Below the pieces are notes generated by a model. The model saw nothing but the letters and a program-made list of their open reading frames with translations. It did not search any database and had not been told where the DNA came from. A stretch of 32,955 nt of DNA. It comes from Anaerostipes sp. MSJ-23. GTDB lineage: Bacteria > Bacillota > Clostridia > Lachnospirales > Lachnospiraceae. The translations under genes and the position numbers were made by a program. Location of the stretch: assembly GCF_018918155.1 (NCBI RefSeq), contig NZ_JAHLPY010000023.1, positions 1-32,955 on the forward strand, in the 5' to 3' direction. This document shows, piece after piece, positions 31,214-31,359 of the stretch; the stretch's first letter is position 1; each line of letters opens with the position of its first letter.

Positions 31214-31359
31214 AGTTAGCGAAGGCTAACCAGTGTGAATGAATCATGTGGACTCCTCGAATTGGAAACACTGCCTGCACTTAAAGTGTTTTCAAACTGG
31301 AAGCTTTACCCTCTTCCAGCGGGGAGTACTGCTATGTATAGGGAAGGAGAATTTTGGGA
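31214..31359 (+). promoter_or_regulatory. Pseudoknotted leader RNA of eno, candidate riboswitch-like element
   Basis: The ~146-nt leader can form four helices: P1 GTTAGC-GAAG-GCTAAC (31215-31230); P2 CAGTGT (31231-31236) with ACACTG (31268-31273); P3 CTGGAAG (31297-31303) with CTTCCAG (31313-31319); and a pseudoknot of ACTCCTCG (31252-31259), in the P2 loop, with CGGGGAGT (31320-31327). P1 abuts P2 and P3 abuts the pseudoknot, so they can stack. AAACACT (31266-31272) can instead pair with AGTGTTT (31285-31291), destroying P2. CTCCT (31253-31257) can pair with AGGAG of the ribosome binding site (31345-31349). It matches no riboswitch class that I recognise. Confidence 0.55.

Follow-up and report, generated by a model that had tools for sequence, protein, structure and literature searches.

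We identified, within the 5′ leader of an enolase gene (eno) of Anaerostipes sp. MSJ-23, a segment that is antisense to the ribosome binding site (RBS) and start of a nifU-like mRNA and that has co-evolved with this target across related genomes. The leader probably carries an iron-regulated, trans-acting antisense RNA with an iron-sparing role, located within the eno mRNA (probability about 0.8). The segment lies in a conserved, structured leader whose predicted transcript begins at an operator of a DtxR-type iron regulon; the direction of regulation, the response to iron in this organism, and action within the eno mRNA or after processing are inferred.

The window (the whole stretch of DNA analyzed, 32,955 nucleotides) contains the following features around eno, to which the target locus is added in the last line.

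31014..31047, + strand: terminator-like hairpin after rplM-rpsI (terminator-like scan, 2 in the region against 1.2 expected)
31154..31168, no strand: perfect Fur-box-like dyad, TGATAATAATTATCA, 5′ of the eno promoter
31179..31207, + strand: putative promoter, -35 TTGATT at 31179-31184 and -10 TATGAT at 31202-31207, predicted start at about 31214
31215..31230, no strand: operator GTTAG-N6-CTAAC of the DtxR-type iron regulon
31233..31257, + strand: segment antisense to the nifU-like mRNA at its RBS and start, consisting of a mostly single-stranded toehold (31233-31247) and an anti-Shine-Dalgarno part within a hairpin arm (31248-31257)
31245..31259, + strand: 5′ arm of the outer helix closing a three-way junction, with partners 31320-31327, 31329-31332 and 31334-31336
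31262..31295, + strand: hairpin H1 (31262-31272/31285-31295)
31297..31319, + strand: hairpin H2 (31297-31303/31313-31319)
31320..31336, + strand: 3′ arm of the outer helix, with Shine-Dalgarno-like GGGGAGU
31345..31349, + strand: eno Shine-Dalgarno AGGAG, read from the sequence
31360..32658, + strand: eno, a class-I enolase (TIGR01060), one of the two eno genes of the genome
Same genome, G000:C22: nifU-like gene at 15603-16292, with pairing to 31233-31257 of the window from 15592 onward

Two known elements were also recognized in the window: an S10-Clostridia ribosomal protein leader (RF03136, 80 bits) at 9085-9175, an ordinary known element, and group II intron domains D1-D4 (RF02001) at 32830-32955, which start just past eno and run off the end of the window.

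The operator and the enolase genes

The inverted repeat at 31215-31230, which a preliminary description had taken for an RNA hairpin (P1), is present and is the only exact GTTAG-N6-CTAAC in the window, but it is a DNA operator. In the 2.52-Mb genome of this strain, the pattern occurs at 10 sites, against 2 for a reversed control. Six of these sites adjoin feoA-feoA-feoB, a DUF3793-flavodoxin locus, a DtxR-family gene, an Nramp transporter gene, apbE and the present eno, and the remaining four have less telling neighbors; the regulator beside one site carries both PF01325 and PF02742. Because the same dyad stands at feo, flavodoxin, Nramp, apbE and DtxR genes, this eno belongs to the iron regulon. 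The arms are invariant among sites because the search pattern fixes them, and allowing one mismatch adds only four class-I eno; constant arms with a spacer that need not pair are as expected of a DNA site.

Four more genomes of the family contained 32 sites against 12 for the control (14/4 in G243, 9/4 in G138, 5/1 in G017 and 4/3 in G183), so that the operator is well supported in G243 and G017 but only weakly in G183, where the count barely exceeds the control. Sixteen of the 32 sites were inspected by eye, and about seven of them lie near feo, DtxR, DUF3793-flavodoxin/ATPase or apbE-like genes and one at eno. At two loci, a truncated Fur-family frame of 84-86 aa adjoins the DtxR-family gene and is separated from it by the operator (L092:1655-1906 and L234:1654-1911; the family search covered the L092 copy only). 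The DtxR-family gene of L092 occupies 924-1319 on the minus strand.

The eno gene is a transcription unit separate from rplM-rpsI. Its promoter-like hexamers place the start at about 31214, one base before the dyad, in agreement with the preliminary description. Promoter-like matches in the scanned region are close to expectation (6 against 5.7), so the call depends on a comparative peak: of 81 eno loci with the dyad, 35 have a -10-like hexamer exactly 13 bp upstream of it, compared with about 4 per position elsewhere. This spacing means that the operator covers approximately +2 to +17, and the operator in turn predicts that the eno transcript is made under low iron. The Fur-box-like dyad further upstream is found in Anaerostipes sp. 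MSJ-23 and a few other species; such sites precede 6 of 70 class-I eno and 0 of 45 other eno, and a site with up to two mismatches arises in 39 of 100 shuffles of the window, making it weak evidence alone.

A survey of 200 genomes of the family found eno at the cut-off in at least 160, and upstream sequence was taken for 116 eno among the matches listed (those at the head of the list and some further down, second copies being favored); the dyad tally omits one gene that had 68 nt of upstream sequence. Among the matches listed, the exact dyad lies within 300 nt upstream of 34 of 70 class-I eno (at least 75% identical), none of nine intermediate eno (68-75%) and none of 36 class-II eno (below), the classes being assigned from percent identity with the window protein alone (Fisher p 2e-8). 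A hand count over the matches listed gave two enolases in 17 of 34 genomes with a dyad-bearing class-I eno versus 6 of 36 without (p 0.005). The second eno of the present genome (G000:C15:43625-44899, L136) is 57% identical and lacks the iron operator; the genes after it, judged by eye from their translations, are a short SecG-like one and an RNase R-like one. At two further loci (L132 in G004 and L133 in G156), class-I eno directly follows a frame whose end, also judged by eye, resembles the flavodoxin of the regulon, with no exact operator in 300 nt; this arrangement is perhaps another route to iron control of eno.

Structure and conservation of the leader

Downstream of the dyad, many class-I eno leaders carry the core GNRU-N-AAUCAU, followed by a stem with a C-rich 5′ arm. 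The core was recognized by pattern in 21 of 70 class-I eno among the matches listed, 19 of them with the exact dyad, and in 42 of 55 dyad-bearing loci, leaving 13 without it. Leader lineages include Ruminococcus species and, from a different family of the class, a single genome (L368). After reduction of 60 leaders to 56 non-redundant ones, YYCC was present in the first 14 nt in 38, compared with 5 and 10 in two control windows. In a shuffle test of the 90 nt after the core, the mean z was -3.6, with 51 of the 56 leaders below -1.5 and 55 below -1; taken alone, the window leader has a moderately unusual minimum free energy (z -1.83; 13 of 200 shuffles equally good). Most of the core is unpaired, with pairing that averages 0.2-0.5 across the first eight positions and reaches as much as 0.7 at the end, and the stems and apical loops are quite different between lineages in both size and sequence. 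A strict closing-helix test identified 27 of 56 leaders against 11.6 expected, a weaker result than that of the energy test, since the lineages do not all share one geometry. Consensus folding of two leader groups with MAFFT and RNAalifold gave no usable fold, because the stems vary in length; shuffle tests were used instead.

The minimum free energy fold of 31210-31362 consists of the small hairpin at 31215-31230 followed by a three-way junction, in which a long outer helix (31245-31259/31320-31336) encloses the hairpins at 31262-31295 and 31297-31319. The helix formerly called P3 (31297-31303/31313-31319) is present in this fold as described and corresponds to H2, whereas P2 (31231-31236/31268-31273) is missing from it and is absent in L098, a relative of the same genus. 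The 8-bp helix 31252-31259/31320-31327 had been presented as a pseudoknot; the pairing is real and persists in L098 with a one-sided change, but it is an ordinary helix closing the junction. Likewise, the pairing of 31266-31272 with 31285-31291, thought to compete with P2, does form, but as part of H1, whose stem in L098 is swapped for a different one with pairing kept. With P2 not conserved and the competing H1 retained, the 8-bp helix is nested and a pseudoknot is unnecessary; the joint conservation of P2 and a loop-to-3′ helix that marks an H-type pseudoknot was not found. The apical loop of H1 is often CUGCUGAA (L010, L011, L016, L019, L030 and L045) and may be a second contact site.

Searched against Rfam, the window leader had no match that reached a gathering threshold, and relaxing the limit to E = 10 added just two, both far below threshold; the leaders of seven relatives and the target locus matched no family. 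The earlier suggestion of an undescribed conserved regulatory RNA with real helices that is neither the fluoride riboswitch nor another Rfam family is borne out.

The leaders are not, as a rule, separate small transcripts with their own terminators as expected of an sRNA class, since a terminator-like site was found in only 3 of 56 (L043, L138 and L158) and none in the window leader; in these few lineages, free RNA may be released. In L043, an intrinsic terminator directly follows the leader hairpin, and it is degenerate in L069, so that the RNA may be free-standing in this lineage; both loci have a second GTTAG-N6-CTAAC site before eno. Copies of the element away from eno were sought with two strict patterns, each of which misses many known leaders. 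The core pattern gave eight matches in 397 genomes of the family (five eno, three unrelated), and the operator plus ATCAT gave 12 in 243 genomes of the class (three eno leaders and nine others, among them L360, for which only the absence of an eno match was established), with no such copy recognized in either search. Two possible reading frames in the leader were rejected: an upstream open reading frame from the AUG of AAUCAUG, because many relatives have U as the next base and several of the frames stop immediately, and a minus-strand antisense frame, because it is not conserved.

Pairing with the nifU-like mRNA and co-evolution

The core and arm together are the reverse complement of GGAG-N4..9-AUG-AUU-YAY. 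Used as a seed in 20 leader genomes, this pattern gave 47 matches against 3 for the control, and translation of 28 of them revealed 16 starts of a nifU-like gene, six starts of PfkB-type kinases, two leaders and four others. The product of this nifU-like gene has approximately 230 aa (MIYSHEVEQMC...), and the gene is followed by one whose product, on reading, holds a GGGtGRT motif, which makes a nifU-GGGtGRT pair. The matches to NifU_N/NifU_clost are weak (PF01592, E 0.001; TIGR03419, E 4e-5; both below curated cut-offs) and suggest a NifU-like Fe-S scaffold; the leader is thus predicted to pair with the RBS and start of an mRNA for a putative Fe-S or iron-using protein. The PfkB-type kinase starts (MIYT) were rejected as targets: the copy in the present genome gave a duplex of -23.5 kcal/mol and a cofolding gain of only -4.5 versus -15.4 kcal/mol for nifU, and the seed match is taken as chance. 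Among 133,344 windows covering about 0.8 Mb of the 2.52-Mb genome, the nifU-like RBS ranked first (-32.6 kcal/mol), with a small lead of 1.4 kcal/mol over a runner-up (-31.2) that is not at a gene start. Energies below -20 occur in 1659 windows, so that nifU would not stand out by energy without position and covariation.

The nifU-like gene was found, by a protein search independent of the start sequence, in 54 of 64 genomes chosen for holding the leader or a near form, including 30 of the 31 leader genomes of known high quality. Ten of the 64 had no nifU-like match; completeness is known for one of these, G143 (98% complete, with a degenerate core). Another genome without a nifU-like match has a well-kept Ruminococcus leader (L028, G418). 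Forty control genomes were chosen by hand, and the gene was present in 10 of 20 (drawn from 36) with class-I eno lacking the exact dyad, 13 of 14 with class-II eno, and all six with the dyad and no core; the difference between leader genomes (54/64) and those with class-I eno lacking the exact dyad (10/20) had a Fisher p of 1e-4. The nifU-like starts are equally conserved where no leader is recognized, 28 of 29 beginning with ATGAT (L372-L400; 13 with class-II eno). The start is therefore subject to other constraints and the leader follows it; in leaderless genomes, a different RNA may target the nifU-like start.

With target starts placed by tblastn in all 54 genomes, duplexes between each leader and its own target averaged -31.1 kcal/mol, and 44 of the 54 were at -25 or lower. 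Permuted pairs averaged -23.4 (sd 0.55; z of the own pairs -13.9), the best of 5000 permutations reaching -25.5, and shuffled leaders averaged -9.8. Mismatched species pairs still gave -23.3 kcal/mol, because the start and Shine-Dalgarno are conserved. Four own pairs were weaker than -20, and in G118 the leader does not follow its nifU start.

Base-by-base comparison of the 54 pairs gave 35 TA, 18 CG, one GU and no mismatches at target base +9, and 41 TA, 11 AT, one GU and one mismatch at +10; in this tally each leader was aligned with its own target at whichever offset matched best, a procedure that favors matches, whereas the permutation and window-rank tests involve no anchoring. A quick tree of the eno proteins from 44 of the 54 genomes shows ten changes of base +9 in the target and as many in the leader, and seven in each at base +10. 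For six supported independent pairs at each site, 5.3 on average agree and none oppose (median sign-test p 0.06 per site), and at +13, 3.3 agree versus 0.2 that oppose. Deviant targets are matched by their leaders: ATGATC by GATCAT (G039 and G425), ATGATTATTTC by GAAATAATCAT (G408), ATGGTT by AACCAT (G422) and, with one mismatch, ATGACT by AAGTGAT (G003).

Cofolding with both RNAs in full fold was performed for 46 of the 54 own pairs; all 46 retained at least eight pairs over the RBS and start, with a mean gain of -16.3, compared with 187 of 230 mismatched species pairs, with a mean gain of -9.3. For the window leader, 31233-31249 pairs with 17 nt about the nifU start and most of the hairpin is preserved, indicating that the single-stranded core can act as a toehold. 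Cofolding the same leader with other genes of the window retained no pairs over the RBS and start of rplM, rpsI or truA and two at 27461 (gains -2.5 to -5.0). The antisense segment was absent in four of six tested dyad-bearing eno of the family without a recognized core.

Base pairing is symmetric, and most lineages have the leader as part of the eno mRNA (3 of the 56 leaders show a terminator-like site), which would also suit a flow of regulation in the reverse direction: abundant nifU-like mRNA in iron-replete cells would bind the eno leader and lower eno expression or stability, or the two mRNAs would block each other. We regard this as improbable, as the duplex spans the nifU Shine-Dalgarno and start, whereas the eno start is about 100 nt further downstream, and eno already has an operator.

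Less probable still is control of eno in cis, through a metabolite or metal riboswitch or a protein-binding leader with the corrected structure, a variant of the ligand-sensing translational switch envisaged in the preliminary description. The arm assigned there to masking of the eno RBS is instead part of the antisense to the nifU Shine-Dalgarno, although in some leaders it also pairs with the eno Shine-Dalgarno region, which is the best window of the C-rich arm in 20 of 56. The helices are conserved, and cofolding of the window leader with the eno start region retained 10 pairs (gain -6.0), this region being partly a repeat of the 3′ arm of the leader. Pairing of the core with the start codon of eno was nevertheless rejected, since it is hardly better with the own gene (-3.67 versus -3.49 kcal/mol with others). 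The conserved bases are those antisense to nifU and track nifU across species, so that pairing in trans with the nifU-like mRNA explains the conserved sequence and leaves the proposed ligand switch unsupported. The leaders lack a conserved aptamer core built from both strands of the fold, their apical hairpins vary in size and sequence between lineages, unlike those of an aptamer, and the Rfam searches were negative.

It is scarcely tenable that the region is only an iron-operator promoter with a stabilizing 5′ hairpin and a nifU match due to chance or shared ancestry: some class-I eno do have the operator without the RNA, and the complementarity is partly to a generally conserved Shine-Dalgarno and start, as the energies of mismatched pairs indicate, but the first rank of the nifU site (by a small margin), the excess over permuted pairs and the repeated co-changes on the tree contradict it.

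Proposed mechanism and relation to known systems

As a co-evolving antisense of the nifU RBS, the leader probably silences the nifU-like gene in iron scarcity. Under iron-replete conditions, a DtxR-family repressor on the start-site operator would keep the eno promoter off, as the operator suggests. Iron starvation would allow the eno transcript to be made, and its first approximately 40 nt past the operator would expose a single-stranded toehold, predicted to pair with the nifU-like mRNA over its start codon and codons 2-6. Pairing could then extend into the hairpin arm and cover the nifU Shine-Dalgarno; translation of the nifU-GGGtGRT operon would drop, sparing iron, while enolase is induced. 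It also seems likely that this is an old circuit of Lachnospiraceae and Ruminococcus, in which the leader of a glycolytic mRNA serves as a dedicated antisense to one Fe-S scaffold operon, co-evolved with it base by base, such that a single transcript raises (or swaps) enolase and shuts down Fe-S assembly when iron is scarce.

Published proteomes contain relevant changes. For C. pasteurianum in early phase and low iron, PMC5395762 gives enolase as increased 4.1- and 4.8-fold (two spots) and flavodoxin 14.3-fold, and its Table 2 lists NifU-related protein as 2.4- and 3.7-fold and GGGtGRT as 7.1-fold higher in high iron. Table 6 of PMC10434189 lists NifU and GGGtGRT of B. thetaiotaomicron as down 11-12.8-fold in low iron. 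By analogy, these data from other organisms fit the proposed direction and do not test the mechanism. If true, the antisense reading would offer a reason for the rise of enolase and the fall of NifU-GGGtGRT in iron-limited Clostridium and would connect iron control with an Fe-S scaffold-like operon about which little is understood. It would also give a major group of gut and rumen Clostridia its iron-sparing RNA, recognized by sequence analysis, and add a notably clear example of the leader of a protein-coding mRNA that acts in trans on a target supported by covariation.

No such RNA was found in the open-access full-text literature, judged mostly at the title and abstract level. The operator resembles those of DtxR/IdeR, whose consensus is TTAGGTTAGSCTAACCTAA, in that GTTAG/CTAAC half-sites adjoin feo, flavodoxin and a DtxR-family gene; it differs in its half-site gap, 6 bp here versus 1 bp in that consensus, and is predicted here from sequence. 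The fluoride (crcB) riboswitch, which the preliminary description placed near eno genes, is unlike the present leader, which has no Rfam match. SreA of Listeria, a terminated riboswitch fragment that acts in trans, is likewise a 5′ leader that controls a second mRNA through base pairing, whereas a terminator-like site occurs in only those three eno leaders. RyhB is Hfq-dependent and acts on the Fe-S scaffold operon iscRSUA; the iron-sparing logic proposed for the eno leader is that of RyhB, PrrF and MrsI, and RyhB would share with it an Fe-S scaffold operon as target. These three are stand-alone sRNAs, unlike the eno leader, which matches no Rfam family.

FsrA, IsrR and RyhB are presented in PMC9410917 as iron-sparing sRNAs that are unrelated to each other and thus convergent, and PrrF and MrsI are named with RyhB in the same source. 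As described there, FsrA (Bacillus subtilis) and IsrR (Staphylococcus) are iron-repressed Firmicute RNAs that stop translation of Fe-S related mRNAs by pairing with the Shine-Dalgarno, as the eno leader would; IsrR also pairs with the initiation codon, and the Shine-Dalgarno-binding part is C-rich, as in the leader (PMC9410917). The same account describes both as separate sRNA genes with several targets, IsrR being under Fur (PMC9410917), whereas the element reported here is an mRNA leader with a DtxR-type operator, no Rfam match and one strongly supported target over approximately 25 nt. The proposed mode of action resembles that of FsrA, IsrR and RyhB, and what is new is its location in an enolase mRNA leader, the DtxR-type operator and a single, long, co-evolving target.
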